A DNA stretch of 64,000 nt from Saururus chinensis (Eukaryota > Streptophyta > Magnoliopsida > Piperales > Saururaceae), in contig CP141145.1 of NCBI GenBank assembly GCA_035235625.1, positions 3,224,001 through 3,288,000 of the forward strand, written 5' to 3'. The notes beneath the pieces were generated by a model. It had not been told where the DNA came from. It saw only the letters and a list, made by a program, of their open reading frames with translations, and made no database searches. Below are positions 14,225 to 56,999 of the stretch, piece after piece (the first letter of the stretch is position 1; each line of letters begins with the position of its first letter). Position numbers and translations under genes: made by a program.

Positions 14225-17181
14225 GTTACGGTTTCAACAAAGTGTAAGTAGTGTTTATAATGGTTTTAATCAAAATCAACTTTAAGATTAGTGGTTTTAA
14301 GTGATTTTGAATCAAATATGAATTTTTGGGATTTTTTTAAATTTTTACTATTTTTCCAAAAATTAGGGTTTTGGCGGGATCCCTGTGGGCCCCACCGTCG
14401 AAATTTTTGTTTTTGGGTCAAATGAACCCAGATATCTACTTAAGGTCATACAAAAATTTTTAGAATTTTCTTAGACTTAATTAGTGCTCAAATCTGTAAA
14501 ATACTCATTTTTAGCCTACTTTTTCTATTTACACCCCATAACTTACCCATACACACCCCAACCCTTACTATAAAAGGTCAAACCTGAGCAATTTCCATTT
14601 TTGGAAATAGGCTGAGGAGGAGAGGTCAGGCCTAATCCCCAATTAGGCCAAGATTAGAAGGTGTTTAAGGTAAGCCTACTTTAATTAAGCACTAAACCCT
14701 AGCTTTCTTCTTAATCTCTTCTAAATCTACCATTTCTCATTTATTTTAATTCATTTTTAGACATCAAAAACTACTAATTTATATTTTACTACAAATCCTA
14801 GCTTTTAAAATCCGATTTTTATGTTCAACAAGCCCTATACCTAAGTTTCTAATTAGGGATTTCTTTGGTAAATCGATTTTAATGGAGTTTAATTTAAACT
14901 CTATGTCTTTGTAAGGTTTTCAAGAAGGGTGACCATCAAATCCAAGCTTAATCAAGGGATAAGGTAATGGACTTTCGAAGTTTCAGTTTATCTATGGTAA
15001 AACTCTTGATTTTTGTCTTATTTTGAATGGAGTTACTTGTTTTAGTGTGCTAATGGCATGATTAGAAAATGGTAATCTTTAATCCCGTTTTCATACGGTT
15101 TTATCTTATTATGATATGGTTTAGCATTCTGGAAGTCATGGAGGACTTTTGATGATATTTAGGGTATTAGATGTTGATTTGAAGTGTTATCAATGAAGTT
15201 TCGGTTTGAAATTGCGAAAGGAAGAAGATGGTCAGTTCTGCCTTGTTGGCGTTCGAATGGCCCTTCTGGGCATTCGAACGGCTACACAGCATAAATTTCC
15301 ATTGGAATTCATGATTTCAACGATTTTAGTTATGATTTCAACGATTCTTCTCATATAATTTCCGTTGGAATTCATGATTAGATGTTAATCCACATGTGTA
15401 GTGTGGTAGTGAGTTAATTTCAAGCATGTTGAAATGCATTTAGTGAAGTACTTCTACTAGGTACACACACACATGTGGGGGTTTAAAGATGATGATGAAG
15501 CTTGATTTTATGATTATGAATGATGCATTAGGGGCTGATGAGAGCACTTATCATGGATTAGGGTTTATGTATGCCTTGCCCACGTATGTACCATGCTACA
15601 TGCATCATGAAAATAGATTTCCAATTGAGGCTTCATCGAGGTTAATCGAATTTGACCGATTGGATGCAATGTGGTGAAATTGTGTGCCGGATTGATCGGT
15701 CGTGGATTAATCGTAAGTTGATTGGTCCGAAAGGACATGTTTTGATTTGAGTTCCTGTGTGGAACGAGTGCACTCCCCGGGTTGAGTTTAGTTAAATGGA
15801 ATTATGCGGGGACGAGTTGTGTACTTGTCTTGCGGATTGTGAGAATGTTATTATGAGTGTCATCTGGACCCTAAGAATCCAGTGTGGTATGCCGTGTGCA
15901 CCCGCTACTACGTGTTCTAGGGTTCCCTGTGTGGGAATTCGGGCTCTCCCCACAGTAGGAGATGTCCCTGGGCGAACACCCCTGCCTCTGTGTGAGAATG
16001 GGACATCCTTGGCCAGGATCATCCAGGGCGAGCAGTTTTTAGGGATTGACAACCCCGAACTTTCTTTAATTCTTGTGTAGAATTTTGGACCATGACACGC
16101 CTTCGTGGCCTTGTCTATGTCTCATCTGTGTGACACCAAATTGTGATTACTCCTTGATGGAGGATGTTATGATCTGATGCATGATGAAATATGTATGTTA
16201 GAGATACATTCATACAGGTGGTTATAAAATGATGCATGATGGAACATGTATGTTAGAGATACATTCATGCAGGTAGTTATGATATGATGCATGATGGAAT
16301 ATGTATGTTAGAAATACATTCATGCAGTATGTTAGAGATACATTCATGCAGGTTGATTATGATGTGATGCATGATGGAATATGTATGTTAGAGATACATT
16401 CATGCAGGTTGTTATGATATGATGCATGATGAAATATGTATGTTAGAGATACATTTATGCAAGTTGATTTTGATATGATGCATGATGGAATATGTATGTT
16501 AGAGATACATTTCATGCAGGGTGTTATGTTGTGAATGACATTATGTGGATTATGCACTATGATGAGTTTTAGGTGACATGTATGTGTTATCAGAAAATGA
16601 TGCACATTGCCAATCTTTGATCTAGATGATTATATTGCTATGCTATCGTATTTTCGATGTTGATAGTGATATTAAAAACCATTGCTGAGTTTGTTAAACT
16701 CACCCCTTTTTCTTGTGTTTTGATTTGGGGCTGTGTGGTGCAACACGCAGACGAACAGGATCTCCTCTTTGAGGAAAGGTTGGAGATGACTTGGATGTGA
16801 TCATGGAGATCGTTGTGTGACTTAATTTCCTTGGTTTTATGCTTTATGTTTAGAACCTTTGTGTAGGGTTCTTTGTTTTGGATTTATGTCACATTTTACA
16901 GTTGTGTTGCTTAAGACTTATTTTGAGCCAGTGTGGGCTATAGTTAACTAAGCATGTGGGTTTGAGATTAGTTGTTTACTTTGTGATAAGCAACTCTCTT
17001 TCTGTTCTTCTTATTTACTCTTGCTCAAAGGATTGTGTGTACTCCGTAATTCTGTTAATTGCCCGTTGTTAGGGTTAAGTCTTCCTCTAAATCATTTCTC
17101 AATTTCCCTTCGTCACCCCAGTGCGCTTGACCGGCCTTTGGACCGGGTTCGGCTCGGGTCGGGCATCGCTGGGGCATGATA
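14225..17181 (+). repeat. LTR-like repeat, family X copy 2
   Basis: It is collinear with 31640-35283 and with 1-2177. A TATA box TATAAAAGG lies at 14570-14578, matching 31948-31956 in copy 3, which places a promoter in the left quarter as in an LTR. Further right come the TTCGAACGG pair (15248-15282), the shared 'cttgtcttgcgg' and 'ctccccgggttgag' blocks, a tandem array (16172-16525) and the end GGGGCATGATA. The right end touches the next element directly at 17181/17182. The left boundary TGTTACGG at 14225 is a guess. No coding capacity; a fossil. Confidence 0.5.
16172..16525 (+). repeat. Tandem array of about 55-58-bp units within family X
   Basis: Six units and one short one share 'gatgcatgatgg', 'atatgtatgttag' and 'agatacattcatgcagg'. 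Copies 1 and 3 of the family have two or three diverged units at the matching place (1446-1600 and 34365-34540). The array has therefore expanded in this copy after the copies separated. Confidence 0.85.
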
Positions 17182-19186
17182 GTAATGCCCCGACCTGAGC
17201 CAGTATTCAAAAAATCTCTAATAAAAATTTCTCCCCATAAGTTAGGAATCATCGTCGTGTGTGAGAGGTACAACATTCATCTATGCACTACGGAGCATTA
17301 AAGCTTCCCTATGCGTAGACTTAGGTTGTAACATTCACATACACATGACAAAACTTCAAAGTTTATCACGTGTAAATCAGAATAAAACTTATAATTATAA
17401 TTAATTTGGATTGGGCTAATGTTGTCTTGCCGTTGATTGCCTAGATACGTATTAGATAACATTCACAATACGATCGGATCTAAACATAGTTCTGCTTAAT
17501 GACTACTACATACATCAGGCATAAAAAAATCATATACATTAAAAATGTGTATAATAATATTCAATCCGAGTTATACAAAAACTAATAAAACACCAGAAAT
17601 ACACATCTTGCTCTATTATAGATTCGAGTACCACACGACCACCACATGCCTTGCTCTGCCCCGGAGTGGATCTAGCACATAAACATGTCTCGCTCTATCA
17701 CTAAGCCGAGACCGAACAATACACACCACACATCTCGCTCTACCCTAGAGTGAGACAAAACATAACAAGTCACATCAAAGCATAACATATTAGAATACAA
17801 AGTATCAAAGAATAGCATGATACTTCATATCATATAATAACAAAGTAATTCAAATCATAACATCCTAAGTTAACTACTTAAGTTGTATATGCATTCTCAT
17901 ACAGAAGATCAAGTATACTCACCTAGAGAAGACATCGGAAGTGGCAGTGTTTAGAGCTGTTTGTTTCTTCAGAGCGTCCTCCTTTCAAATCAGTTATGGT
18001 GGGCAAAATCTCCTTCGAAGTAGGTGAACGTAGCATCCCTTAAGTTGGGGATGTTCCTTACTTTTCATACTCGAAGTTGATAGATAGGACATCCTCTTTT
18101 GGGAGACATCTTTCACCTTCTATGCTTATGAACTATGGCCGGAATCTCCCTTTAGCTTGGGGATGCCTCTCTTACTGGGTGGTGGAGGACAGAGCCTCCC
18201 CAACTTTGGATTGCTTCTCTTGTTGTGACCCAGCAATTGTGGACAGAACCTTGTCATACTTGTTGCTCATTTTTCTTTCTATGGTGCTTGAGGATGATGG
18301 GTAGGACCTCTCCTTATATTGGGGCGTTTCTTCCTCATATAGTCTTCAACATGAAGAAATAACCCCTCCATTGAGTAGAGCACGCTCGATTTAGACAAGA
18401 ATGCCTCTTAAACGGACTAAATCAGAGTTAAAATGCTAAAAAACGGAGACAAAGAAGTTTGTCGGTGCTCGAGGACAACGGGCAGGACCTCTCCTTATAT
18501 TGGGGTGTTTCCTCCTTATATAGTCTCTAACTCGAAGGAAGGACCCCTCCATTGCATAGAAAACAATCAACTTACTTAAGAACATCTCTTGAACGGCCTT
18601 AATCGGACTCAGAACACTCAGAAATGGAGGAAATGATGTACTATCCGAAAAATAGAAGAAATGGGGTATTTATAGACCTCATTGCACCGAAACTATCGTG
18701 CCGCATAGCAGGAAATGGTGGTGCCACTTGTTTTGGGCAGTGACACCCATCAAAATGTGGTGCCCATGGTTTCGTAGGGGCGCGTTGCACCGCGCAGAAC
18801 GCCAGTTGTGCCCCGCGCGCTATTTTTCTCTTTTTTATTTTTATATTCAAATCTTCAAACGCACGTAACTTCTTACCTTGTATTCGGATTTGCGCGTTCT
18901 TGGCACCATTGGATTTGTATCGATAAGCCCTTTGATACAAATGCACTTAAAGCAGTATATGATGCTCTTTTTAACTGGGTCCCACCTATTTTCCATGCTT
19001 CTCGAGGTCATAAATTCTGGTCCCGACCTTCGTTTTGCCCATTCTTTGATTTGTTAAGCTCGTTTCTTTAAGCTATACTCATATACGGGGGTTTCAATAT
19101 TTAAAACACTCTAAAACTCATTAAAAGGTTATCTAATTACCTCTAAACCCAAAGGCTAAACGCAATTAGAAAAGGGGGGCGTTACA
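17182..19186 (-). repeat. 3' LTR of the minus-strand gag-less element
   Basis: It begins, on the minus strand, with TGTAACGCCCCCC next to a purine tract and ends in GGTCGGGGCATTAC. A TATAAATA box lies on the minus strand near 18668-18676, followed by a U5-like part containing reiterated 'ctccttatattgggg' blocks (18311 and 18491). Two 180-bp tandem copies are visible at about 18290-18640. Confidence 0.7.
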
Positions 19187-20329: not shown

Positions 20330-21420
20330 ATTTCAATAAACAAATGGAATCAACTTTGAAGCTGTCCATTAACACCTCATGTCCCATACTGCGGGTGTTT
20401 GATGACATCTTCTTAGCAATTCTACAAACAATTAAGATAAATTTACTAAATTTTAAATCTATTTTTCAATAACAGAGGATTTGAAATTAATTTCATATCA
20501 AATCCATTAGCAGATTTAACCTTAGAGCAATCCACTAATGCCTGATATTTCATATCATAGGTGTTTAGTGATTTCTCTTTGATTTTTCTACTTTTTTCAA
20601 AACAGATTTAAAACAAAACTTTCAAATTACGGACATTTCAAAATTGAATTTCATATCAATATATCGGTAGGATTTACCGCAGACTTATATACTAACACCT
20701 CACATTCTATATCGTGGGTGTTTGATGGTTACTCTGAGGTGGTTCTATCGCTTGGAAAATAAATTTATTTCTAAATCAAAAATATTTTATAACACAAATA
20801 ATTTGAAATCAAATTTTTTTTTCAATACCTTGGTAGAATCAACTGTAGAGTTTTCCACTAACATCTCATATCGCATATCATGAGCATTTTGTGGTTACCC
20901 GTTGGTAAATCTACCACCTTTGAAAATAAATTAATTTCTAAATAAAAAATATTTTCTAAATTGAATAGTTCGATACCAAAATTTTATTTTAATACCCCAG
21001 TAGAATTTACTGTAGGGTTTTCCATTAGCTCCTCATGTCCCACACCATGAGCGTTTGGTGGCTATTTTGTGATAATTTTACCATCTTTGAAAATAATTTA
21101 ATTTCATAATCTAATACACTTTTTTTTTAAAATGAGCAATTCAAAATCAAATTTTATGTCAATACTCAGGTAGAATTAACTATAGAGTTTTCCATTGGCA
21201 TCTCATGTTCCCTACCAGGAACTTTTGGTGGTTACTCAGTAATTCTACCACCTTTGAAAATAAATTAATTTCTAAATTAGAAACATTTTCTAAAATAAAT
21301 AATTTGAAAGCAAATTTTATTTCAATACCTAGGTAGAATTAACCGTAGAGTTTTCCACTAGCGTCTCATGTCCCATACCATGAACGTTTGGTGGTTACTC
21401 CTTAGTAATTCTACCATAGT
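20330..21420 (-). repeat. Tandem hairpin array, about 168-bp period, seven units
   Basis: Seven units begin near 20340, 20505, 20663, 20830, 20996, 21165 and 21332. The best four are spaced 167-169 bp. Each contains an approximately 85-nt core bounded by GGTAGAATT and its complement AATTCTACC. Read on the minus strand, the core holds the phrase ACCACCAAACG...ATGG..TGGGACATGA. The spacers are A-rich and less conserved. The same core, with similar spacing, occurs in the plus-strand relative at 42333-42905. No coding frame runs through. It is probably a structured RNA or DNA module of the element. Confidence 0.75.
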
Positions 21421-22844
21421 TGAAAACACATTTGAAATCGATGTCACATAAAAACATTTTTCAAAATATCATATAATGAATTCAAAATTTTCGATCAAAT
21501 CAAATTCGAAATAAAATAAAAAAATTGTAAAGTATGAGTTTCAGGTTAAATCGAAAGCCACATGTGCAAAAGTAAATATCAATTCATTCTCGATGAAAAT
21601 TAAAATTTGGAGAAATTAGAATCCATCTTAAATTCGATGTAACATATGGAGAACAAAAGTTTAAATCAAATCCGATTTGAGGTTTGCATCAAACCGTGGA
21701 ATAAAAATCTTGAATGATTCTTCGATTAAAATTCATACTAAATCAGATGGAAAATATTCAAAACAAAAATCTCAAATCAATTTTAATATAAAATTTGAGA
21801 TTTGCAAAGTCTAAGTTTGCCATTAATAGAATACACATACGTAGGATAAAATTTAAAATTACTTCTAATTAAACAAATCATAATTTATTAATGTTCGATT
21901 CAATTTTAATAGCACACCAATAGGATAGAATTATAAGACAAATCCTATAACAGTTATTCATGACTACATATTCAAATCATTCTTTATTTATTATGGAAAT
22001 TCATAAAACTAATGTTCATATCAAACTCATTTCAAAGCATACAAACCAAATTTTAAAATTAAAATCCACTTGAGAAGGGGAGTTCTTAAAATCAGAGTCT
22101 GCATTAAATCAAAGGCTACTTTTTTCAAATAGAAAGTTCAAAATTGGATTTTGGAATAAATCTGATATCGTACATGCATATCCAAATGTTCAAAATTGGA
22201 ATTAATCAACAACACATCAAAAATAGAAATTTACTTCAACTTTAAAATCAAAATTCATTTCGAAACAATCACCACACATTCAAAATAGAAATTTCCAATT
22301 TTTTTAAAATTTAAATCAAAATTCTTATTAAATTAATAATAAAAATCTCATACTCTTGCAGACAAATTAATGCTCCGATACCATTTGTAAGGCCCCAACC
22401 CGAGTTGGGGTCTAAAAAATATCTAATAAATATTTTCTTCCCTTAAGCCAGGAATTATCATCTGTGTGCGAGAGGTATAACATTCATCTATGCACTACGG
22501 AGGTTTAATGCTTCCTTATGCAGAGACTTAGGTTGTAACGTTCACATACACACGACGAAACTTCAAAGTTCATCACGTGTAAATCACAATAACACTTATA
22601 ATTATAATTAATTTGGATCATGTCAATGTTGCCTTGCCGTTGGTTGCCTACGTACGTATTGGATAACATTTACAATACTATCTGATCTGAACGTTGTTTT
22701 GCCTAAAGGCTACTACATACATCAGGCATCTCAAAATTATATACGTTAAAATATGTATATACTAATATTCAATCGGAATTATATAGAAACTGATAAAACA
22801 CTGACAAGAAGAGGTTTTATCTATTGTGGTCGTGTCACGACCCG

Positions 22845-24084: not shown

Positions 24085-24845
24085 CGGCCAACAATAGTAG
24101 TACTAATAACAATATTTTTTTATAAAGCATCTCAAATAATGGTACTATTAGCTATGCTTATATAAAAATGTTGCTAATAGTTGTAATATTAGCGACGCTT
24201 TCTAAAAAGCATCCCTAATAGTTACAAGTTTTAAATAAAAAAACAAAAAATTTTGAACTATTTGCGATATTTATGTACAAGCCTCACGATTAGTATTAAT
24301 ACTAGTGATGGTTTTTTAAAAGTGTTGCTAATTTGTTGTGCTATTAGTGACGCTAAAAAATGTTTTAAATAAAAAAAATTTATAAAAACATTATGCTTAA
24401 CTATTAGTGACACTTTTAAAAAAGCATCCATAATAGCTTAACGAATTTATTTTATTTAATATTTATTATTTAAATATATAATAAAGAAATATTAAAAAAT
24501 TTAAAAATAAACTTCTCAAATATAATATATTTTATTTAATATTTCTTATTTTATATATAATAAATAAATAATAATAAATTTAAAAATAAAGTTTTCAAAT
24601 ATAATATATTTTATTTAATATTTATTATTGTATTTGTAATAAATTAAAAAAAATAAGGAGATTGAGGGTAGAGAGATTGATGAGAGAGAGAGAAAGTGGA
24701 GAGATAGAGAGAAGAGATAGAAAGAAAGAAGCGAGAGATGAGAGAGGGTGAAGATATTTTTTTTTTTGGGAAATTATATTATATTATTATATTTAAAAAT
24801 TTAAAATAAAATATATTAGCGATGCTTCGTGAATTGCGTCACTAA
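24085..24845. mobile_element. CACTA-type subterminal module fragment
   Basis: It contains repeated 'tattagcgacgct'-type words, often as inverted pairs (for example near 24190-24215 and 24815-24845), and a GA-rich tract at 24656-24752. This combination matches the internal make-up of the complete CACTA element at 46707-50102. No CACTA terminus was found here, so it is a fragment. Confidence 0.55.
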
Positions 24846-31639: not shown

Positions 31640-34600
31640 GTAGTTTCCAAAGATTTTAAATAAAAATAGTTTCACATTTGTGAGTTTTAAGTGAATTTCA
31701 ATAAATTGTGAATTTTTAGGTATTTTATCAAAATTTTCAAAAATTAAGATTTGTGGGACCCCTTTGTGGGCCCCAGGGTAAAATTTGGGGGTTTTAGTCC
31801 AAAACATCCTTAACATTAAAACAAGTCATTAAAAAAAATTTTAGAATTTTTTTTGTCTTAATTAGGGTTTAAATAACTAAATTACCCACTTTTAGTTATT
31901 ATTATGTTTGTATCCCCAATTTTGATTAGGTCTAACCCCTTCCTTACTATAAAAGGAAAGGGGTTAACCTCTTTTTCAATTAGGAAAGGGCTAAGCCTGG
32001 GATCAAGAGGACTAAACCCCATTAACCCAAAGTGGAAGAAGATTTAAGGTTTGAATTTCTTAATATTTTCTTATTTATTAGGGTTTTTATAAACTTCTTC
32101 TAATCTCATCTTTCTCCACTTGTTAATCCTATTTTCAAGCCATTAAGTCATTGATTTACATCTCTACTTCAAACTCTAGCTTTTAAATTTTCATTTTTGA
32201 GTCTCTAAAGCTCTGGATCTAATATTTTACCAATGATTTTTAAGTTTTAAATAGGATTTTGGTGGGTATTAACAAAAATTATAATTTTGGGTAGACTTCA
32301 AAGGAGATTAAGGAGTTAATCCGACCCAAAAAGAGGTGAAAGGTAATGAGTTTAGTCTTCAAGCTTGCTATATTTCAAATCCTTCTTTTGATGTGTTCTA
32401 ATGGTAGATTAGTAAAAACCTAATCTTTTGTAATAATTTATTAGGATTTTGATTGAAAATGAGTAAATTTAGTATTTTGGAAGTTTTGCCTAGATTTTTA
32501 TAAAGTTTAGAACCTTGATTTGAAGTGTTAAGTTTGTTAATGGAGTCTCGATTTGGTTTTCAAACTGGAGAAGACGAACTAGATCTGCCGTTATTGTGAT
32601 CGATCGCCCTTATAGGCTGATTGATCGGCCAAATGATATTGTAGGTTGGTTTTAAGGCCATCCGATCAAACAGCCTTGGAGGTTGATCGATCAGCTACAC
32701 AACAGATTTTGGGCATTTTATTTCCTATGCTTATTTCGGTATGTTTACACTCCCAAATGTTATTTATAATGTTTATGTGGAGTGTTTTGAGGTAGGATAA
32801 ACAACTCGAAAGGTATGCTATTTATGTTTTAGAATTATGGAGCATGTTTAAGTATTATATGGAAGTACATGTCGATGGTTAGACGTGTTAGTATGATTTA
32901 TCTTAAATCTATAGTTGATTATTTTCTTATGTTTAAGCATGCTTCCGGCAAGGTTATTATATAACAATGTTCTAATGTGCCTTTTTATTGTATGAATAAA
33001 TTATAGGTGAATGGGGATACTATGACCTAGTTTCATGCATGGATTAAATATGCTAGTAGGAGTTGAGCATTAGACTTCACTTGATTGAATTGATGATTGT
33101 GAATGGATTTCCCCATGATTTCAGTTGAGAACTATGTTTAGATTTTATCGAAAAATGTGTGTATTGCCTTGTAAACTATTGTCAAAGCATGATCATGTGC
33201 TTAGGAATGTATGAATACACACATGTGGGGAATTAATTATGAAATCGCAGTTGTTTATGACTAGAATATGATGCATGTAGAGATTGATGCAAGGACATTT
33301 CATGTGATGGAATTCACATAGAGAAAAAATGGGGTCGGAGGGAGAAGAAGAGGGGGGCTCCGGCAGGAAGCAGCCAGAGCAAAGGCTGCTTAGAAATCCA
33401 TTCACAATCATCAATTCAATCAAGTGAAGTCTAATGCTCAACTCCTACTAGCATATTTAATCCATGCATGAAACTAGGTCATAGTATCCCCATTCACCTA
33501 TAATTTATTCTATAGTATCAACACGTATGCATGATCATGTGCTTAGGAATGTATGAATACACACATGTGGGGAATTAATTATGAAATCGCAGTTGTTTAT
33601 GACTAGAATATGATGCATGTAGAGATTGATGCAAGCACATTTCATGTGATGGAATTCACATAGAGATTGCTTACGTATGTATCCTATTGCATGCATCATG
33701 AAACGGACTTCATAAATAAGAATTTATTGATGATTAGTCATGGTTGATCGATTGCATGAAATGATGTGAGATTGCATGCTGGATTAATTGGAACTTGGCT
33801 AGTCTGAAAGGACATGATTTCGATTTGAGTTCCTGTGTGGAACATGTATACTCCCCAGGTTGAACCGACTTGAGTTGTGTGGGGACGAGTTGTGTACTTG
33901 TCTTGCGGTTGAGATTACTTGAAATAGTCATGTAGACCCTAAGAATCCAAAGTGGTATGCCTTTGTCAACTGGCTACCACGTGTTTTAGGTTTCTTGTGT
34001 AGAATTCAGACTCTTCCAACCGTAGAATATGTCCAGGGCGAACCACCTGCTCTAAGTTCTTTGTATGACATTCGGGCATTCCTTGGCTAAGACTGTCCAA
34101 GGCAAGCAGACTTATGGGCTAACTAGCCCGACACTTTATATTTCCTGTGTGGAAATCGGACTATGTGCTGCTTGTGTGATAATGATTATATTCACTCTTT
34201 GATGGAGACATTCACAATTTATTGATAATGCATGTGTATGAGATTATATCATGCCCAAGATTACATAGGCTGTGTAGGGATAATGTGACACATGTAGATA
34301 TTATTGATTATGCATGATTGTGTATCATGTATTTGACACGTTTGTCGTGCAGGGTGAATGAGCTACAGAATAGATGTGATATGAATGCACGATCTAAATC
34401 GTGTGATTGAGACACTAACATGCAGGTTTATGTGATAGAAATGCACAATCTGAATTGTTTGAATGATACACTATCATGCAGGTTTATGTGATGTGGTTGC
34501 ATTATCAAAAAGTGTGTGAGAAACACTTCTCATGCAGATTGTGTGTGATATTATGCTTAATTGTGATTAGATAAGGCTCACTACCTAAGTAAGATGGTTG

Positions 34601-35283
34601 CTACATTGTAACATGATTATGTATGTCCTGACTTGATATGTGTTATATGCAAGATAGATTTTTTACTTATAGATAAGTAGGGGTTAGTAAGGGGATGATC
34701 AGAAAAAAGGGTCTACCATGTCATTTATGGATCTGAATTGCCATGATGTTGTGCCGTGATGATTTTTTTATTAATGTTTTTGCTTTCAAATGATTACTGA
34801 GTTTTGTACTCACCCCTCTTTTGTAATTTGTTTTGGAGTAGCACAGTGCGACGTGTAGACATGCAGGACACCTTATATGAAGGACGACATAGGTACTTGT
34901 GGGATTAGCCTTCGTGGCATTCTGATGATGTTTTATTTTCATTTTTGATACTATAGAATATTATATGGTGGATTATGTATCATGCTCGCCTTTATTTGTT
35001 GTTCTTAGACTTGTCTAAACTTTTCTGATTTTCGAGCCATGTGTAGGCTTAGGAGAGTATTATGTGGGATGGTGTGAGGACTATGACAGTTTATATTTTT
35101 CTCTTTGTTTTCTTTATTTCTCTTGTTCAAAAGATATTAGGTGTTCTACGCCATTATTTGAATTGCCCATTTGAGGGGCTAAGACTTCCGCAATACGCTA
35201 ATCCATTAAATTTTGCGCCCCCGCGCACTTGACCGGCCATTGGACCGGGTTTGGCTTGGTTTGGGAGGAGCCGGGGCGTGACA
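31640..35283 (+). repeat. LTR-like repeat, family X copy 3
   Basis: It is collinear with 14225-17181. Landmarks are 'gggcccca' near 31770, a TATAAAAGG box at 31948-31956, a TCGATCGG pair near 32600-32695, the shared 'cttgtcttgcgg' block near 33899, short tandem units at 34365-34540, and the end GGGGCGTGACA at 35273-35283. A 342-bp locally templated insertion interrupts it at 33324-33665. No coding capacity; a fossil. Confidence 0.55.
33187..33665. repeat. Locally templated complex duplication
   Basis: Two direct 137-bp copies (33187-33323 and 33529-33665, one mismatch) flank two pieces. The first, 33317-33385, matches 35305-35373 (69 bp, one mismatch). The second, 33393-33510, is an exact reverse complement of 32994-33111 (118 bp). 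Fillers of 7 and 18 bases separate the pieces. The first joint shares the 8-base microhomology CATAGAGA. Confidence 0.9.
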
Positions 35284-37075
35284 GCTCCGGCCTGAGGAAG
35301 CTGGCATAGAGAAAAAATGGGGTCGGAGGGAGAAGAAGAGGGGAGCTCCGGCAGGAAGCAGCCAGAGCAAAGGAAGAAGGGGCAAAGAGGGGGAGGGGGG
35401 TTCCGGTAGCCTCCGACCAAAGTAGAGAAAGAAGGGGGTGAGGGGACAGGAAGAGGTGGGAAGGGGATGGGGAGGGCAACGACAGAGCGGGGTGGCTCGC
35501 AGAGCAAAGGAAGAATTTTTTTTTATTTTTTTCAAAATAATATATAATAGAATTTCAATTCTCTCTCTCCCTTCCTCTCTCTCCCCTATCTCTGTCTGCT
35601 CTCCTCCCTCCCCCCTCTCTCTTTCCTCTCTATCTCTCTTCTCTCTCTTCCTCTCTCTCCTCTAGCTCTCTCTCCTCTCTCTCTTCTCTCTTCTTCTCTC
35701 TCGTTCCCTCCTCTCTCCTCACTCTCTCTCGATCTCTATTAATTTCCATTTTTTTAAATTTAAAAAACTATTAGTGACGCATAACATATGCGTCGCTACT
35801 ATACTTGTTAGTAGCAACACATACGTGTATGTGTCACTACTACCCTATGTTAATAGCAATGCATACGTCTATGCATCACAACTAAGATTTGTTTATTTTT
35901 ATTTTAATTTTAAAAATAATTTATAATATAATTTTAATTCTCTCTCTCTCCTCTCTCTCTTTCCCTTCTCTCTCTTTCCTCTTTATCTCTTCTCTTTCTC
36001 CCTCCTCTCTCCTCACTCTCTTCCTCTCTCCCTTCCTCTCTCTCTCTCCTATCTCCTATCTCTTATCTTCTCTCTTTCTCTCACTCTCTCTATCCTTCCT
36101 CTCTCTTCCTCTCTCTCCTCTCTCCTCCCTCCTCTGTCCTCTCTCTCTATCTCTTTTAATTTAATTTATTTAAAAAGTAAAAAAACTATTAGCGACGCAT
36201 AACATATGCGTCGCTACTATACCCGTTAGTAGCGACGCATATGTGTATGTGTCGCTACTACCCTATGTTAATTCCCTCTCTCCCTATCCTCTCTATCTTT
36301 TCTCACTCTCCTCACTCTCTCTCTCCCTCCTCTCTCCTCTCTCTCTCTCTTTCTCTTTCCTCTCTATCTTTTCTCACTCTCCTCACTCTCTCTCTCCCTC
36401 CACTCTCTCTCTCTCTCACACTCTCTCTCCCTCCTCTCTATCCCTCCTCTCTCTTCATGACTCTTACTCTATCTCTTTTAATTTATTTTTTTAAAATAAA
36501 AAAATAATTAGTGTCACATAACATAGGTGTCGCTACTATACTTGTTAGTCATGACGCATACATATATGCGTCACTACTACATTGCTACTACATTACGTTA
36601 TTAAAAATAATTTATAATAAAATTTTAATTTTCACTCTCCTCTCACTCCCTCCTCTCATTTCCCTCCGTCTCTCTCTCTTTCCTCTCTCTCCCTTCTCTC
36701 TCTCTTCTCTCTCTCCCTCCTCTCTCCTCGCTCCAACTCTCTTTCCTCTCTATCTCTTCTCTCTCCCCTCACTCTCTCCCCCTCCTCTCTCCTCTCTCTC
36801 TCCCCTCCTCTCTCCTCTCTCTCTCCCTCCCACCTCTCTCTCTCCCTCCTCTCTCCTCTCTCTCTCTCCCTCCTCTCTCCTCTCTCTCTCTCCCTCCTCT
36901 CTCCTCTCTCTCTCCCTTCTCGGGTTAGTAGCAACACATACGTCTATGCATCGCTACTAAGAGTTTTTTTTTCTAAAAAAGTTTAAAAGATAATTTATAA
37001 TAAAATTTTAATTCTCTCTCTCCTCTATCTCTCTCTTACTGTCCCTCGTCTCTCTCTTCCTCCTCTCTCCCTCTC
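35284..37075. mobile_element. CACTA-type array: CT tracts alternating with GCGACGC/GCGTCGC hairpins
   Basis: Four to five units of about 350 bp each hold an A-rich piece (aatttataataaaat), a 50-290-bp CT-only tract (35554-35740, 35937-36155, 36268-36475, 36628-36920, 37011-37077) and a hairpin-rich piece with CGACGCATA...TATGCGTCG. The make-up matches the internal part of the CACTA element at 46707-50102. No termini were found. The Ser/Leu-rich frames across the CT tracts are artefacts of composition. Confidence 0.65.
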
Positions 37076-38578: not shown

Positions 38579-41402
38579 TATAACGACCCGTTTTCCAGTT
38601 ACGTTTAACCCGGGTGGGTTAAGGGTAATTTAGTCATTTGTGATTAGTGTTAGAGGGTTTCATTAGCTGAAACCCCCATATCCGGGTAGAGCTTGGAGTA
38701 ACGAGCGTGATGAATCAAAGAACGCACGAAACAGAGGCCGGGAGTGAAAGCTACGGCCTCGGGAAGCATGCTGCATGGGCGGGGCCCACTCAAAAAGAGT
38801 TGGATAACCTACCCATCTGTGGTCTTTTATTGAAGGGCTCATCAATACAAGTCCATCGGTACGTAGAACGCACGATTCTGACTTCGGGGTAAGAAGATAT
38901 CGCGCGTCGAAGTTTAGATATTTTTGGATTAAAATAATATGTAAAATATATTATTTTAATCATAAAGGACAGAATTGCTGGAGTCAGCCACGCTGCCCGA
39001 TGCGCGGCACTGTGCCGCATGGCGGGGGGGCCCACGGGCCCACGCAGTGACCCGCGCGACGTGCGGTCATCCGCGCATCGTCCCGTGCGTACGCGGGACA
39101 AGGCCCGCGTCGCTAGCCGGCTCCCGCGCGGCCACGCACTTCACGCATGAGGCTAGTGCATCGCACACTGTGCAGGTGCGCGATGCCAGGCGCACGCATC
39201 CCCGAGAGCATTTCGTATGCTCTCGGCTCCTCTATAAATACCGGACTCTGTTCTATTTTTCGGAGGAGTTTCTGGACTCCTTTGGAGTCCGTTTTCTTCG
39301 GTTCTTGAGGCGTTCCTAGTTAATTCGAGGGTGATCTACGCAATGGAGTGGTCCATTCCTCGAGTTGGCACTCCTATTAGGGAGGAATGACCCGGGGCAA
39401 GAGGAGGCTCTGTCTGCCGCTCTCCTACCCCGAGAGTGAGAGAGAGATGGCCCGGAGAGAGAGGAGGCTCCGTCCTCCGTTACCGGGCCAGATCAAGAGA
39501 AGTGGCCTGATGTTGGGCAGGCTCCGTTCTCCCCCGAAGGGCCATGACGTGTGAAGGACACCCCGAGTAGGGGAGGTTCTGTTTCCCGCCCACGGGTGCA
39601 GAAAACAAGGTTTCCAAAAAAAGAGAGAGTTGGTCGGGTTGTCTTTCGGTGGAGTTTTTGGACTCGTTTGGAGTTCATTTTCTTCCGTTCTTGAGGCGTT
39701 CCTAGCTAATTTGAGGGTGATCTACACAATGGCATGGTCCATTCCTCGAGTTGGCGCTCCTATAAGGGAGGAACAACCCGGGGTAAGAGGAGGCCCTGTC
39801 TACCGCTTTCCTGCCTCGAGAGTGAGAGAGAGATGGCCCAGAGAGAGAGGAGGCTCCGTCCTCCGTTACAGGGCCAGATCAAGAGAAGTGGCCTGATGTA
39901 GGGGAGGCTCCATTCTCCACCGAAAGGCCACAACGTGTGAACGACACCCTGAGTAGGGGAGGTTATGTCCGCCGCCCACGGGCGCAGAAAACGAGGTGTT
40001 TGGGAAAGGGGAGAGTTGGTCGGGTTGTCTTTCAGTGGAAGGGGAAGAACGTACGGGGGCTAGAGGAGGCTCTGTCCGCTGTCTCCAGATTTGAGGGGGA
40101 GGACGCCCAGAAACGAGCTTCCCGACTACTGCTACCTCATGAGACATTAGGGGAGTAAGGGTTTCTTACCTTCTATTTAATTATAGAATGACATGTGCTA
40201 GTCATGAGGTGTGTCGTCTCGCTCTAGGTTAGAGAGAGATGGGTTGTGCGTGTGTTATATTATGATAGGTGTTGCTTATATGCCATGTTGTGTGCCGTCT
40301 CGCTCTGGGTGAGAGAGAGAAGGGTTGTGTGTGTGTTTATATATTGTTATGCTATGCGTATATGCATGTTGAGTGTCGTCTCGCTCTGGGTGAGAGAGAG
40401 AAGGGTTGTGTGCGTGTTTATATATTGTTATGCTATGCTTATATGTATGTTGTGTGTCGTCTCGCTCTGGGCGAGAGAGAGACGGGTTGTGTGTGTGTTT
40501 ATATATTGTTATGCTATGCTTATATGCATGATGTGTGTCGTCTCCCTCTGGGTTAGAAAGAGACGGGTTGTTCATGTGTTTATATTATGGTATGCTATGC
40601 TTATATGCCATAATGTGTGCCGCTCGCTCTGGGTTAGAGAGAGATGGGTTGTACGTATGTTTATCTTATGATATGCTTTGCTTATATGCCATGATGTGTG
40701 TCGTCTCGCTTTGGGTTAGAGCGAGACGTGTTGTGTGTATGTTCAGTCTCGGCTCAGTGAAAGAGCGAGACCTATGATTGTGTTCCATCTCACTCTATGA
40801 TAGAGCAAGACGTGTGATACGTGTGGTCTCGGCTAAGTGATATAGCGAGACGTGTGATGTATGTGGTCTCGGCTCAGTGATGGAGCGAGACGTGTGAAGT
40901 GTGGTCTCGGCTTAGTGATGGAGTGAGACGTGTGATGTGTGGTCTTGCTCTAGGATAGAGTGAGGAATGTTGTGGTGGTCGTGTGGTGCTCAACTCTATG
41001 GTAGAGCGAGATGTGTGTTGCCGATGTTTTATCAGGCTTTTGTATAACTCCGATTAAATATTCGTAGATACATATTTTAGATGTATGTGTTTTTGGTATG
41101 CCGGTTGTATGTAGTAGCCAATAGGTAGAACTACGTCCGGATCCAATCGTATTGGAGTAACATCGTGGATGTTATCCGATATGTACGTAGGCAACCAACG
41201 GCAATGCAATATTGGCCTGGTCCGAATTAGTTATATAATTAGGCCAGTTCTTGCCTATGCGCAATGGAGCGCTAAAGTTCCGTAGCATGTAGAGGAACGA
41301 GAAGACTCTCGCACTCAGAGTGTGCTGCTCTTGGTTCTGGGATTGGTTTTTATCGTGTTTCGGACCCCCAGCCCGGGTCGGTTTGCGGGTCGGGGCGTCA
41401 CA
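38579..41402 (+). repeat. 5' LTR of the gag-less element
   Basis: This 2.8-kb LTR has a TATAAATA box at about 39232-39239 downstream of a GC-rich stretch with CGCGCG words (38990-39200). The leader contains a direct duplication of about 385 bp (39263-39648 and 39649 to about 40030). Next come about seven units of 84 bp (40195-40740, 'gtcgtctcgctctggg') and about six units of 40 bp (40745-41015, 'gtctcggctcagtgatgg'). Confidence 0.75.
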
Positions 41403-42332
41403 AATGGTATCGGAGCTTTCCTCTGTCTGCGAGAGAAAAATATTTTCAACAAATTCAGGTTTTTAAATGGGAATCAGATTTAATTCATACTCCGATGGTC
41501 ATTTTATATGTGTGTCATCGGTTTTAAGGAAAATTTCAATATGATTTAATGTTCGGATCTTTAAGGGTCGTGATGACCTAAAGTTTTATTTAGAATTTCC
41601 GTTTGATTTGAAGTTCTGTTTTGTGAGGATCAAGTCGATCTAAAGTTTCATTTCGACAAGTGTTGTATCGGAGTTGATATAAAACTCTAATTGTGATTTT
41701 TACATTTTCGCATGTGTCATTTGATTTAAGGTGAACTCCAATTTGATTTAACGTGCTGTTTTGTAAGGGTTGTTTCTGTTTAGAAAGTGTTGTGTCGGAG
41801 TTATATACTCTGATTGTGATTTTTATCGTTCTGTGATATCAGAATTAAAGAGAATTCCGATTGTGATTGTTCGTTCTTTTTGTGATATCGGAATTATGAA
41901 GAATTCCGATTGTGAACGATTTTTTTTATGCATATGTTGTATCGGATTCAAGGTGAATTCCGATTGTGAATGTTCTATCCTACGAGGAATTTATCGGATT
42001 TAATGCTAACTCCGATTTTATGGATTTTGATTTTAAATCAGAAATGATTTAAAATTTTTTTCTTGCATATGTTGCAAGGTATTTGAAGTGAACATCGATT
42101 TTATAAATTTTGATTTTGAGTCAGGAATTATTTGAAATTTCTATCTGAGTCAGTTTGATCGGGTTTTATACAAATTCCGATTTTGAATTAAATTCAATCG
42201 GAATATGTGTTATGAACATGTTATGCGATTTTCTAAAAATGTTTTACGTGACTTCAATTTCGAATGGTTCATATGTTGAACTTCGATTTTGAATGATCCG
42301 AAATTTAAGAACAGACTTCAAATCAGCTCGAA

Positions 42333-42905
42333 AGATGGTTAGACTACCTATGAGAAACCACCAAAACACCCACAGTAGGGGATGTGCAGTGGAATGCTCT
42401 AGGATTTGTTCTACCGATGAAGTTCAAAACATAGGTATTTCAAAAGATTCCCTTAAGGCGAATTTATCAAGAAAATTATGTTGATAAAAGGTAGAGCTCC
42501 TATGAGGAACCACCAAACGCTCGTGGTATGGGACACGCAGTGTTCGTGGATCGCTCTAAGGATAGTTCTGCCAGTGTTTCGAAATAAAATTTCAAAAATG
42601 TTCATACTTTGAAAATTCGCCTTAACTTAAGGCGAAGTTATTTTGAAAGCCAGTAGCATTCCCGAAGAGGGACTGCCTAACATTCGTGGTATGGGACACG
42701 CAATGTGGGTAGACCGCTCTACAGTTGAGTCTGCTGGTAGTTTATTCTAAAAAGTTAATTTCAAACCTTATGTGTTTTGAAAAACGATTTGAAATTATAA
42801 AAGCGTCTCAATGGCCAGTAGAATTACTAAGCGGAAACCATCAAACGCCCGTGTTATGGGACATGCGGCGTAGATGAGTATCCCTTAAGTAAATCCGCAC
42901 GTATA
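42333..42905 (+). repeat. Tandem hairpin array, four units, about 160-bp period
   Basis: Cores lie at about 42333-42418, 42490-42577, 42648-42738 and 42822-42905. Each carries the conserved phrase 'accaccaaacg..cgtggtatgggacacgcagtg' in whole or diverged form. Closing arms are GGTTAGA/TCTACC, GGTAGA/TCTGCC, CCAGTAG/CTGCTGG and CCAGTAG with a lost partner. The inner ACCAC/GTGGT words can also pair. It is the counterpart of 20330-21420 in the minus-strand relative. Confidence 0.75.
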
Positions 42906-43317
42906 TTGAGACAAAGTTTTAATTTCAAGTCTATTTTGTCTTGGTATGTGTCTTTGAGTTGGGATGTGAACGTAGAATGGTTGTTTTAAGCGGGATTGAA
43001 TCTTGAAGGTTGGTTGTTATGACGATGTTTTGATCGAGCCAGATTTATGGCTCTATTGTCAGAAAGAAAATTATGTTTTCTGAAAAACGATTTGGTGCAC
43101 ACGATGGTACGTGAGTGTTGATGTGTTTTGATTTCGTATGAGCCACTTAATATTTTGGTTTCATACAGTGATGTGATTTGACTTCGTATGAGCCACTGAA
43201 CATTTTGGTTTTCGTACAGTGATTTAATTTGAACTGTTTTAGCATGGATGTTGCTATGTTTGAACAATGTGATGATTATTTTATGGGCTTTCGAACATGG
43301 AATAATCATAGAGTGAT

Positions 43318-43965
43318 GATGCCTGCCGAGAAAAATAATCGGCAAGTGGCGCGCACAGGGTAGAGCATCGTGGGAAAGCTCTGTCCCTAAGTGGCCCTCG
43401 TTTGCCCCATGAGCACCGAGGGTAGGCCGTTGGGTATCGCGGCTTGTGTTGGGATGTGATATGTTGTACGTACCACTTGGTGTAGTGGACGTATATGTGG
43501 ATGCCCGCTGAGAAAAATAATCGGCAAGTAGCGCGCACAAGGTAGAGCATCGTGGGAAAGCTCTGTCCCTAAGTGGCCCTCGTTTGCCCCATGAGTACCG
43601 AGGGTAGGCCGTAGGGTATCGCGGCGTGTAGATGCCCGCTGAGAAAAATAATCAGCAAGTGGCACGCATAGGGTAGAGCATCGTGGGAAAGCTCTGTCCC
43701 TAAGTGGCCCTTGTTTGTCCCATGAGTGCCGAGGGTAGGCCGTTGGGTATCGTGGCTTATGATTGATTGTACGTACATGTGATGATTATTTCATGGGCTT
43801 TTGAACATGAAATAATCATAGAGTGATGATGCCCGCCGAGAAAAATAAATCGGCAAGTGGGGTGCATAGGGTAGAGCATCGTGGGAAAGCTCTGTCCCTA
43901 AGTGGCCCTCATTTTCCCCATGAGCTCCAAGGGTAGGCCGTTGGGTGTCGCTTCTTGTGGTTTTA
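43318..43965 (+). repeat. Tandem array with GCCGA...TCGGC hairpin and 'gtagagcatcgtggg' core
   Basis: Four units start near 43318, 43500, 43628 and 43828. Each opens with GCCGA, a GAAAAATAA loop and TCGGC, followed by 'ggtagagcatcgtggg', 'aagtggccct' and 'gagggtaggccg'. Unit lengths vary from 128 to 200 bp. A fifth partial unit sits in the rearranged 3' LTR at 45040-45125. Directly after the array, 43966-44235 holds about nine 25-bp units of 'cttgtggttttggctcggg'. Confidence 0.8.
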
Positions 43966-44619
43966 ACTGGAGCGCGAGTTTGTGGTTTTGGCTCGGGTGT
44001 GAGCTTGTGGTTTTAGCTCGGGTGCGAGCTTGTGGTTTTAACTCAAGTGCGAGTTTGTGGTTTTGGCTCGGGTGCGAGCTTGTGGATTTTATGAGTTTTA
44101 GCTTGGATGCGAGCTTGTGGTTTTGGCTCGGGTGCGAGTCTGTGGATTTTACGAGTTTTGATTCGGGGGTGATCTTGTGGTTTTGGCTCGGGTGCGAGCT
44201 TGTGGATTTTTACGAGTTTTGACTCAAGTGTGAGTTTGTGGAATTGACGTGTTTTGACTCTGCGTATTGATTTATCTGATTTTGATGTAAAAATCAGATT
44301 GTGATTCAAGTGTTTTATCCGGTCACGTGTCATTGGATTCTGATTATGATTACTTAATTCGATCGTAATTATCGCATTTGGTTTTCTCCTATCCGAGTAT
44401 GAAGTCTCGGATCGTGTTTATGTTAGTGTTACCCAATCGGGTTATGCTTTTGAAAGTGTTATCCGAGTGGTTCTCGGATTGTGTTTCTCAAGATTTTTTT
44501 CGATATTTAAATTATCGGAATGTTGTTTGTGTTTGCTATCCGATTAAGATCGGATTGTGTGGTGAGGTGAGATTTCTTGGGGCGAATTGTGAGGACGTAA
44601 TTCATTTAAGGGGGAAGAA

Positions 44620-45796
<1,177 letters not shown>

Positions 45797-46706: not shown

Positions 46707-49700
46707 CACTACAACAAAATTAGGTATTAGCGACGCTTTTATTAACGACATATTTAAAAGTGTCGCTAAAAACTATCATTTGTGACACTTTGTAAAGCGT
46801 CGCTAATACCGACGCTTTCCTCAAAGCATCGCTGATAATATATTTGTAGTGACGCTTTACATAAAGCGTCGCTACAAATTTATTATTAGCGACACTTTTA
46901 GTAAAGCGTCGTTACAAGTCAGCTTTATTAGTGATGCTTTATAGGAAGCGGTACTACAAGTATATTATTTGCGACGCTTTTAGTAAAGCGTCACTAAAAG
47001 TCAGATTATTAGCGACGTTGTACATAAAGCGTCGCTAATAAATCTGACTTGTAGTGATGCTTCCAGAAAACGTCACTACAAGTTGACTTATTCGTGATGC
47101 TTAGTAAAGCGTCGCTACAAGTTAGTTTTGTAGTGACGCTTTATCAAAGCATCACTATATGTTACATTTTAAATTTTTTAAAATTTTTAAAAAATAACTA
47201 TTAGTGACAGTTTTATGAAGCGTCGCTACAAAAGATACATTTAGTGACGCTTTATGGAAAGCGTCACTACTTAATGATACTTGTAGTAACTTTTTTAAAT
47301 AGCGTCGCAAGCCAACTTGTAGTGACGCTTTGCAAATCTGTCACTAATAGTTATTTTCTTTATATATTTACTGAAACATTTAATTTTGACGCATAATTAT
47401 CAATTTTGTGGTCCATATTGTTATCGCCTTCTATGGATCGTATTTTCCCAAACTCTAGTTACAACATAAAATTTTAAGCATTTTTTGTTAAGGAAATAGG
47501 TTAAAATGGGAAGTGTTATAACATGATTAAAGAAATATTTTTTTGGAATTGGGCCCAGACAATTAGCTTAATATCTCGACTTATGTTAGAGGAAGATCAT
47601 GGTATAATTCCTCCTTATAAATAAAATAATATATATTATAGAATACTTAATTTAATATATTAAAAATAATTTCTTATATATATTTAATATATAATAAAAT
47701 AAAAAAATTTAATGTGTAAAATATAACTCTAATGTTAAATTAAATTAACATAAATATAAAAAGTATTACTAATATTGTAATGAAGGCATACGACTTATTT
47801 GCACATTTGGAACTAGTTTTATTAATTTATCGATGATAATTTGGCTAACAGACGTATATGTTATAACATGTAAGTAAATGCTAACTAGTTTTTTTACATT
47901 TGTGCTAAGACATTTGACTTAATCTCTCCACTTATGTTAGAAGAATATTGTGTATGTTGTTCCTACTTACAAATTAAGAAATATAAATTATGAAATACTT
48001 AATCAATTAAATATGTAATATAATTGAATTATTCTTTAATTTAATAATTTATATAATAAATTTGAATAATATAAATTATGAAATAAATATATTAATAAAA
48101 TTCTTAAATAATTATTTATCATATTATGTAATAAATTTGTAAAATATAACTATTAATTAGTACTATTAAATTATATAAATATAAATATTTTTTAATATTA
48201 ATTAGAGAGAGGGAAGAGGGAGAAAAGAGAGAGAGTGAGGAGAGAGAGAAGAGAGAGAAGAGAGAGAGAGTGAGGTGAGAGAGAGAGTAAGGAGAGAGAG
48301 AAGAGGAGAGAGAGAGAAGATAAGAGAAGAGAAGAGTGAGAAGAGAAGGGAGAGAGAGAGGAGAAAGAGAGGAGAGAGAAAAGAGAGAGAAGAGAGAGAG
48401 TAAGGGATGGAGGGAGAGAGAGAATGAGATAAGAGAGAGAAAGTACAGAGGGAGAGGAATTTAATTTAAATTTTTTAATATTTTTTTATTAAATATTATA
48501 TTTTAAAAATCATATTAAATTTTTTTATTAAATATTGTATTTTTAATATTAATTAGAGAGAGGGAAGAGGGAGAGGAGAGAGAGGAGGAATTTTTTATAA
48601 TTAAATTTAAACTATTAACGACGCTCATCTAGGAGCATCACTAATAACGTAAACTAATTGCGACAGTTAAGTATATTATAATTGGCAGCCATATTGTTGT
48701 ACCATTTATTTCACAAAATTCCTTACTTTTATGTTTTGTTTTGTCCTTAAAAACTTCTTTGATCCATCAATAGGATTTGTTTATACAGGTCAAGGCAAGA
48801 TTAGGAGGGCGGATCCGCCTAATAATTTCTGGAGGTGCTGCTTTAAGCACTGAGATAGAGGAGTTTTTGAGGGTTACGAGCTGCGGTTTTGTTGTTCAAG
48901 GCTATGGTTAAGTGGAACAAAATTGCTTGAAGTTTGATAATTGCAATGTTAATGAATATATGTAGGAAATCATACTTTTTGTAGTAACCTATTTCATCTT
49001 ATATTGCTTGAATAAACAGGGTTGACAGAGACTTGTGGATCGGTATCATGTTGTTATCCTGATGACATGGAATTGATTAGAGCAGTTGGTACCCCTTCAG
49101 TGTTCACTGAGATTCGTCTTGAGGAGGTCCCGGAGCTTAGCTACGGCTCACTTGCTATTCAATCTCGTGGTGAGATATGTATTAGGGGGAAAACTCTTAT
49201 GTGGCTACCACAAATCCTAGAATTGACCAAAGAAAGTGATGAAAGATAGATGGTTTTACACTTGCTATTCCATCTCGTGATGGGATATGTATCACAGTCC
49301 TACACATTGAGGAACGTATTGATGTATACATGCTTCATAGAGGAGGCAGTGAAGATTTTGATATTGAGCTAACATAGTTAATCTTTAAAGAATTCAAATT
49401 TTATTGTAAGAAGAGATTTTAAATTGTAATTGAAATATGATTGTATTGATATAATAAGCAAATATATATGCAATTTTCATTTCTATTTAGCATACCATTT
49501 TATTTTTTTTGAATTTTTTGTTCATTAGCAACGCTTTGTAAGCGTCACTAATAATCGTTTTAGCGACGCTTACAAAACGTCTCTAGTAGTTGATGTTAAA
49601 TAGCGACGCTTACAATGCGTCCCTAATACAATTATAAGCAACGCTTTGCATGAGCGTCGCTAATATATATCTTAATGAAAAAAGTCGCTAATGTATGTAT

Positions 49701-54333: not shown

Positions 54334-54423
54334 ACTCACTTGTTCCCAAGTACGTTGTGGAGTAGTTGATGAGCTCATCCTCCTCTTCAGTGAAGTTGCC
54401 CTGTTTATGATCAGGCCTGAGGT
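54334..54423 (-). pseudogene. R2R3-MYB transcription factor exon 2, 3' part
   Basis: Read on the minus strand: LRPDHKQGNFTEEEDELIN, then, one base out of frame, LHNVLGNK, ending at a GTGAGT donor (54334-54339). This is the end of repeat R2 and the start of R3 in plant R2R3-MYB proteins (usual form NYLRPD.KRGNF..EEDELI..LH..LGNKW), with the intron at its canonical place. A 1-bp deletion breaks the frame before LHN. The 5' part of the same exon lies beyond the retrotransposon, at 61908-61929. R2R3-MYBs are DNA-binding regulators; this one is dead. Confidence 0.82.
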
Positions 54424-55243
54424 CTAATTGAATGAAGAAGAATTCAGTTCAGAAAATTCAGAGAAAATATAAAACAGAGAGTTTTCAGAATGAAGAGGTA
54501 ATTCCGTCAATCACTAATGCAAGGTCTAGACCACCGTTGGAATGAGTTGTGGGAACATGGCTAATTTGGTCTGTTGAGTACGATTAATTGAGTTGTTAAT
54601 TCCGTTAGTCATCTCCTTCATGAGGCTTCAGATTGAATAGTATTTTAACAGGGCGATGAAGAGAATTAATTCTAATAATCACCCAGGGAGAAAATGCATA
54701 TAAATACGAGGGAAACCAATTGGAGAGGGACTTTTTGAATTTCAAATTTCTGCTAAAAGCCAGAGAGCAGGGCTCCCCTTTGTTTCCGTAGAACCAGATC
54801 TGGAAGAGATCTGTATGTGCCTATTTGAGAGATTCTCAAGCTCGTGGTGGAAGCGTGTTTGCTCCCAAGCTTCAGAGTCGATCTAATCCTAGAGCTAAGT
54901 GCAGAACAATTTAGTTTTGGAATTCTATAAATCAGAGCCATAAAGATCTGTAATACGAGTCAAGTTTAAGGATTGTGACTATTCTATTATCGAATTTCTC
55001 TGTGTACTTTAGCTGTTTCAGATTGAATTAGTGCATTACTGAGATTATGGACATTTGAAGTATTGGAAATCGAAATTGAGTTTAAAGTTTGATGCAATTT
55101 TACTAATGAATTCCAATGTTGCTGTTAAATGTTCCAAGTTGCATTTTAGATTTCTGAACAACTGATTCTCACTTGTTGATATTCAGAATTAACAATTTGT
55201 AGTACTTGGTTAATTGTTAAGAGTTGGAATTGTGATTACATCA
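54424..55243 (+). repeat. 5' LTR of the Ty3/gypsy element
   Basis: It aligns with 60985-61907. It contains the TATAAATA box near 54707-54714 and 'gactattctattatcgaattt' style U5 sequence, and ends ...TTACATCA before the primer-binding site. Its exact left edge within the MYB exon is uncertain by about ten bases. Confidence 0.88.
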
Positions 55244-55245
55244 TT

Positions 55246-55257
55246 TGGTATCAAAGC
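55246..55257 (+). other. Primer-binding site (initiator Met-tRNA type)
   Basis: TGGTATCAAAGC, two bases after the LTR, matches the usual plant TGGTATCAGAGC complement of the initiator methionine tRNA 3' end with one difference. Confidence 0.85.
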
Positions 55258-55265
55258 GGTATTAA

Positions 55266-55495: not shown

Positions 55496-55529
55496 GGATA
55501 GGTAATTTTCAATTTTTATAGTGGGCCCT

Positions 55530-56719: not shown

Positions 56720-56999
56720 AAGGGTTTAATTATAAACAATCAGCCCTACCTATATTGCATGTTTGTCAAGGCTCAAATCTATATGAACGATAACCATTGA
56801 AAATTATAGAATCTGTAATTTTTAAAATGGTGATTAGGAGACTGAATTGACTAAATGTGATTCAGGCTGATTTAGGTTTGAAACGACCTGAATCTAACTT
56901 CAATACTTAATTGTTAATTCAGCGCAGCTTCTGTACACAAGTGCCAGAAAATAAAAAGGTAAAACTACGTCTTGCAAGCTAAAAAGTGGAGCAACAACA

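Follow-up and report, generated by a model that had tools for sequence, protein, structure and literature searches.

BARE2 belongs to the Copia superfamily, and Gag alone is missing from it. The gag-less element is packaged by its helper BARE1, and conserved dimerisation and packaging signals are reported in the passages of PMC3735527 considered here. Large retrotransposon derivatives, or LARDs (Kalendar et al. 2004, as cited in PMC7215508), are characterised in the passages of the citing paper by LTRs, PBS, PPT and a non-coding internal region. Tandem repeats are described for the 3' UTR of Tat/Ogre elements, where they lie downstream of gag-pol and are called hypervariable in the corresponding passages of PMC7004042.

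Two elements in the window, the 64,000-nucleotide stretch of Saururus chinensis DNA analysed here, have the LTRs, PBS, PPT and non-coding internal region of LARDs and carry in addition a tandem hairpin array, which goes unmentioned in the LARD description as far as the passages of the citing paper extend (PMC7215508). Like the Tat/Ogre repeats, these arrays are tandem repeats within plant LTR elements; unlike them, as they are portrayed in the passages of PMC7004042, the arrays lie in the 5' part of the element and have kept a pairing pattern. A parasite packaged by a helper would resemble BARE2 as presented in PMC3735527, helper dependence being presumed here; unlike the BARE2/BARE1 pair, the four candidate-helper leaders examined here are without the hairpins. 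Among the papers listed by searches of an open-licence library, no title or abstract opening described a covarying tandem hairpin array in a LARD.

Array-bearing elements in the window and the genome

Profile search confirmed the seven minus-strand and four plus-strand units of the earlier note and revealed none besides these in the window (Table 1). A first pass built from one unit returned the 11 units at E values from 1.4e-23 to 2.7e-4, with the next match at E 4.4, and a second pass, for which these 11 units supplied the profile, placed all of them at 1.4e-14 or better, with the next match at about 6. The same 11 window units, and nothing more at E<=1, were recovered by a covariance model, which is not independent proof as its training set (55 rows) includes window units or close kin. 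All 11 units scored higher in the covariance model with base pairs than in a sequence-only model. The arms pair as had been claimed, with GGTAGAATTA/TAATTCTACC in the array 1 unit at 21332-21415 and GGTAGA/TCTGCC in the array 2 unit at 42491. The proposed period of 160-169 bp did not hold throughout, the starts being spaced by 166, 167, 167, 166, 157 and 166 nt in array 1 and by 153, 162 and 165 nt in array 2. The core pattern has 62 exact matches in the genome, and its reversed control has none. The loop of the core is not uniform, since UAUGGGA is exact in 5 of the 11 window units, namely the two end units of array 1 (2/7) and units 2-4 of array 2 (3/4). An Rfam scan of the window gave no family at gathering score, and five sub-threshold matches (E 1.6-3.4) fell in the array 1 region. 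One array 2 spacer, 42576-42649, contains the palindrome TTCGCCTTAACTTAAGGCGAA and has a folding z of −4.2, the other eight spacers ranging from −2.4 to 0.8.

Table 1. Positions of the hairpin arrays and of the landmarks of the two elements that carry them
Feature	Position in window	Strand	Basis or remark
Array 1, seven hairpin units	20344..21414	-	nhmmer and covariance model
Array 1, units 1-4 in listed order	21414-21332, 21248-21169, 21081-20999, 20914-20832	-	
Array 1, units 5-7 in listed order	20748-20666, 20591-20509, 20425-20344	-	
Array 2, four hairpin units	42338..42898	+	nhmmer and covariance model
Array 2, units	42338-42415, 42491-42572, 42653-42735, 42818-42898	+	
Element 1, PBS TGGTATCGGAGC	22372..22383	-	exact complement, 12/12, of host tRNA-Met(CAT) 3' end, CCA added
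Element 2, PBS TGGTATCGGAGC	41405..41416	+	
Element 1, 5' LTR, surviving end	22387..22801	-	84% self-alignment with 17182-17593
Element 1, 3' LTR, ends approximate	17182..19186	-	starts TGTAACGCCCC behind purine tract
Element 2, 5' LTR, start approximate	38581..41402	+	ends ..GGGGCGTCACA
Element 2, purine tract and 3' LTR start	44605..44961	+	self-match ends near 44961

In both elements the PBS follows the 5' LTR and a purine tract precedes the 3' LTR. The LTRs start with TGTAACG or a close variant, the 5' LTRs end in ..GGGGCCTTACA and ..GGGGCGTCACA, and the LTR repeats of element 2 (38581-38918/44622-44959) are 88% identical in self-alignment. Because PBS and PPT fix the sense strand, the hairpin strand is the sense strand in both elements. 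The arrays begin 969 nt (element 1) and 933 nt (element 2) downstream of the PBS; a Tat/Ogre type, with the array near the 3' LTR, was rejected on this ground. Neither element has a sense frame of at least 150 aa, and the antisense frame at 42986-43651 in element 2 has no Pfam match. The second half of element 2 contains 25-nt tandem repeats (43954-44260), and many related copies have long antisense frames in that part. LTRs with PBS and PPT are thus joined to an absence of gag and pol coding, and both elements are LARD-like non-coding LTR retrotransposons. Judged by the divergence of their repeats, both appear to be old. In TRIM elements the internal region is almost absent, and Cassandra carries 5S in its LTR. 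Assignment to either was rejected on the internal region of element 1, which at about 3.2 kb is not near-absent; the lack of an Rfam match at gathering score in the window speaks likewise against Cassandra and against a retrozyme with its hammerhead ribozyme.

Other repeats in the window are a perfect 118-nt inverted repeat (32994-33111 and 33393-33510, with 281 nt separating the arms), MITE-like clusters of the palindromic repeat AGCGACGC at 46740-47360 and 24117-24435, and a repeat with 55-57-nt tandem units in three diverged copies that are 62-71% alike (575-2178, 15343-17199 and 33532-35296).

The element family is common in the genome, which comprises 516 Mb in 11 contigs: a pattern for the PBS junction matched 135 times, and its control did not match. 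When PBS junctions were sampled regardless of arrays, three out of four had an array within 2.3 kb downstream, and the fourth was interrupted at about 1 kb by sequence like an LTR end. With each of four arrays as query, a DNA search produced 613-991 first-look candidates, the best 40 of which were scored, and the pattern search exposed further array styles such as subfamily C. The resulting set holds 331 full units (329 distinct) from 74 array loci, after 18 of 349 matches, including shortened subfamily C units, had been left out as shorter than 60 positions or cut by the end of a locus. Among these 74 loci, 20 of which contain little beyond the array, six sense frames of at least 110 aa occur, and none was recognised by eye as gag or pol. 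The number of units per array varies, with a maximum of 9. In subfamily C the array consists of two full units and a shortened middle unit that lacks the outer arms and keeps the apical stem and loop; a strict pattern for this shortened unit matched in 5 of 16 loci scanned, with the loop GTATGGGA in 5/5. A DNA site with nucleosome-scale spacing was one of the readings offered by the earlier note. A fixed spacing of this kind does not agree with the unit spacings, which vary from 92 to 174 nt in 245 of 257 cases; the remaining 12 (226-232 nt) each run across a filtered-out shortened unit.

Compensatory change in the hairpin

RNAalifold on 329 units predicted one hairpin of about 83 nt, composed of outer arms, a GAG/CTC block, a CCAC/GTGG block and an apical stem that closes an 8-nt loop, most often N-UAUGGGA. 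The check proposed at the outset, a search for single covarying pairs, was carried out with a custom-written R-scape-like test (APC-G with a tree-based null) on 180, 62 and 168 units, the first set drawn from two subfamilies and the other two freed of rows with more than 15% gaps. None of the pairs within the structure reached E<0.05, an outcome that goes against the criterion of the earlier note. The best of them, at n=168, had E=0.07 over 27 structure pairs, and the top-ranked pairs fell outside the structure. Taken together, the structure pairs had higher scores than the remaining pairs at n=168 (p=0.002), with a marginal difference at n=62 (p=0.056).

The structure as a whole was examined by a count of events, which is the more powerful approach, against a tree null in which column rates and targets are preserved and changes are placed independently on the tree. 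For 168 units, pairing at the leaves was 83.6% versus 63.2% (sd 3.6) and at ancestral nodes 92.2% versus 68.7%, where the observed internal states are Fitch estimates and the null uses simulated true states. Compensatory double changes numbered 36 versus 13.9 (sd 3.9), a count reached in 0/300 simulations, and slid structures gave 2 to 12. The 62-unit set yielded 21 versus 10.1 (1/300). Tips were less well paired than ancestral nodes in the null also, which by itself is no evidence. In a held-out test, for which the structure was the fold of one window unit and the data were 116 units from 29 other loci, aligned jointly with all units and with pairs that start in columns 1-7 of the folded unit left out, 24 compensatory doubles were found versus 11.9 (sd 3.4; 0/500), while double changes of any kind were as expected (43 versus 43.2). 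A shuffle test on 55 rows, 7 of 62 units having been removed beforehand, pointed the same way in part: paired cells, both-side cells (86 versus 47.6) and score were each reached by 0/500 shuffles. The two measures described as less prone to relatedness were unremarkable, pairs with both-side change numbering 20 versus 17.2 (39/500) and pair types 48 versus 47.2 (219/500). In a first small alignment of 16 units, from which 3 of 19 clusters had been removed, 24-30 of 500 shuffles reached the pairing and score measures. Conserved RNA structure was thus found by the whole-structure tests, not for single pairs, and the conclusion that the hairpin as a whole is kept paired by compensatory change is supported. 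The suggestion of a structured RNA of a non-autonomous LTR element is supported by this excess over the phylogenetic null, by the lack of a sense frame and by PBS and PPT.

These counts bear on the alternative that the array is structured but passive, a functionless tandem repeat that slippage within the element produced and whose paired look was inherited. Unit number does vary, up to 9, other plant LTR elements have tandem repeats according to the passages of PMC7004042, and 5 of the 7 array 1 loops deviate from UAUGGGA. Compensatory doubles, however, exceed the tree null about two-fold, in the held-out test too, and we regard a passive repeat as unlikely.

Strand was also addressed through the direction of mismatch. 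At the tips, changes from Watson-Crick to G-U versus A-C stood at 79:87 (n=62), as in dead copies, and on internal branches of the same set at 41:23 (p=0.033; tip versus internal p=0.028). In the larger sets the internal-branch excess was not significant (78:57, p=0.085, n=168; 111:95, p=0.3, n=329), nor did folding energy prefer the sense strand (mean z −2.77 versus −2.53, p=0.14, 120 of 331 units). Since neither the larger-set ratios nor the folding z-scores separate the strands, the strand claim rests mainly on PBS and PPT.

The apical loop and its possible partners

The octaloop has changed more slowly than its surroundings. Internal-branch changes per column were 0.62 in the loop, 2.54 in the stems and 3.79 in the flanks at n=62, and 2.38, 5.52 and 10.0 at n=168, so that the loop changed 4 times more slowly than the stems in the smaller set and about 2.3 times in the larger. 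The first loop base is the most variable and the last loop A has the fewest changes. An exact UAUGGGA is present in 194 of 329 rows and an exact hexamer UAUGGG in 201. Loop sequence varies with unit position: in 26 four-unit copies of subfamily B the loop is GUAUGGGA at unit 2 in 23/26 and at unit 3 in 19/26, GUAGGGGA, without AUG, at unit 1 in 18/26, and at unit 4 either UUGUGGGA (13/26) or UUAUGGGA (10/26). As loops differ by unit position, the motif is not kept in every unit. Pairing in altered-loop units was not significantly looser (p=0.076; apical stem p=0.6; n=168). The complement CCCATA occurs nowhere in element 1 and once in element 2, inside the LTR, and the loop therefore has no clear partner in cis. 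Simple loop-loop dimerisation is disfavoured, since the hexamer of the loop is not complementary to itself. Mimicry of the PBS, suggested by the resemblance of the core TGGTATGGGACA to TGGTATCGGAGC, was rejected, as on internal branches the TGG part changes 5-7 times per column and the UAUGGGA part 0-4 times.

A partner in trans could be the primer itself. The loop UAUGGG would kiss the anticodon loop CCCAUAA of the primer tRNA-Met, and the array would concentrate the tRNA near the PBS. The PBS is the exact 12/12 complement of the 3' end (CCA added) of host tRNA-Met(CAT) gene L058, acceptor ATCGGAG, and the anticodon loop encoded by this gene contains CCCAUA, to which UAUGGG is exactly complementary; the first loop base, unpaired in this model, is the most variable. 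We take the matched host tRNA-Met(CAT) genes to be initiators. In HIV-1, a template loop reportedly interacts with the anticodon loop of tRNA-Lys3 (Isel 1993, as listed in the references of PMC13191261). The principle of a template loop meeting the primer tRNA would be the same, with a pairing that is here predicted; unlike in HIV-1, the loops are present in several copies, about 1 kb from the PBS. Against primer capture, the match was noticed post hoc, its chance being about 0.15% (1 of 3 octaloop hexamers meeting 1 of 2 hexamers in a given 7-nt loop) before other conceivable targets are counted. The loop base that changes least, the last A, lies outside the hexamer, pairing is kept in only 2 of 12 internal-branch changes in columns 45-50 (A to G), the hexamer is exact in no more than 201/329 rows, and CAU pairs with any AUG-containing loop. 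Primer capture is accordingly a doubtful reading, and it is rather improbable that a parasitic retrotransposon's kissing-loop array reads the anticodon loop of its own primer, the initiator tRNA-Met. If it did, the array would hold the primer, or carry it into the helper particle ahead of the helper's array-less RNA.

Another element in the window, of Ty3 type by domain order (54418-61908), has the PBS TGGTATCAAAGC at 55246, an exact 12/12 complement, with CCA added, of the tRNA-Met(CAT) variant L057 (acceptor ATCAAAG). Judged from these primer matches, different lineages of retroelements may have become adapted to distinct variants of one primer tRNA (L057 versus L058).

A translation-related role is quite unlikely; in this reading each loop would offer a start codon in favourable context, with a purine at −3 and G at +4, and the array would act on ribosomes through upstream starts or shunting. 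In the loop N-UAUGGGA a G does follow the AUG, 161/168 rows have G or A at column 43, and a stop occurs within 15 codons in 29 of 127 units in the AUG frame and in 110 and 114 in the other frames. This openness, however, comes from one shared sequence and amounts to about one observation. Slow change extends over UAUGGGA, beyond AUG alone, and in subfamily B the AUG-less loop predominates at unit 1 (18 of 26 four-unit copies), with UUGUGGGA in half of the copies at unit 4. Internal-branch changes downstream are distributed over codon positions as 74/86/79, without bias, and a coding array was rejected for the same reason. Least probable is that the hairpins are a source of, or an escape from, small RNAs, as miRNA-like precursors or Dicer decoys: tandem hairpins of about 83 nt would suit this, but no Rfam family was found at gathering score, and the arms change faster than the loop, whereas in miRNA precursors the opposite holds.

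Candidate helpers and proposed function

Candidate helpers were sought among coding chromoviruses by a search for the SH3_Tf2-1 domain, in which the best 150 of 5539 candidates were scored. Four elements were selected by their long open frames, and a 3-kb stretch surrounding the estimated leader of each was inspected. The PBS was TGGTATCGGAGCC in three and TGGTATCAGAGCC in one; three of the four leaders share the PBS of the array elements, with similar letters ahead of it, and in three a stop-to-stop frame of at least 123 aa starts 92-115 nt past the PBS. None of the four leaders gave a hairpin match at E<=10, a result that covers leaders rather than entire elements and for which 2 of the 4 stretches extend 1 kb past the PBS.

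In our preferred reading, the hairpins would act in cis as RNA docking sites, present in several copies, at which a factor acting in trans engages the RNA for packaging or replication. We give it about an even chance; the structure is supported and the function we infer from it. The array would form tandem stem-loops in the 5' portion of transcripts from a LARD family that is non-coding and depends on a helper, transcription and helper dependence both being presumed. A partner acting in trans, most likely the helper's Gag or a host RNA-binding protein, would dock at each loop, and up to nine repeats would give avidity. A partner in trans is suggested because a slowly changing loop sits on a covarying stem, in several copies, at a 5' place in an apparently non-coding RNA and with no clear partner in cis. 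The likeliest need of a LARD is entry into the particle or replication complex of its helper, and docking would give this RNA, which has no ORF, such entry.

To our knowledge, little is known of how plant retrotransposon RNA comes to be selected for packaging or of how LARDs without ORFs compete for a helper. The hairpin provides a concrete piece of RNA for use as bait or for deletion and mutation, and the two kinds of element can be compared because the candidate helper leaders examined lack it.
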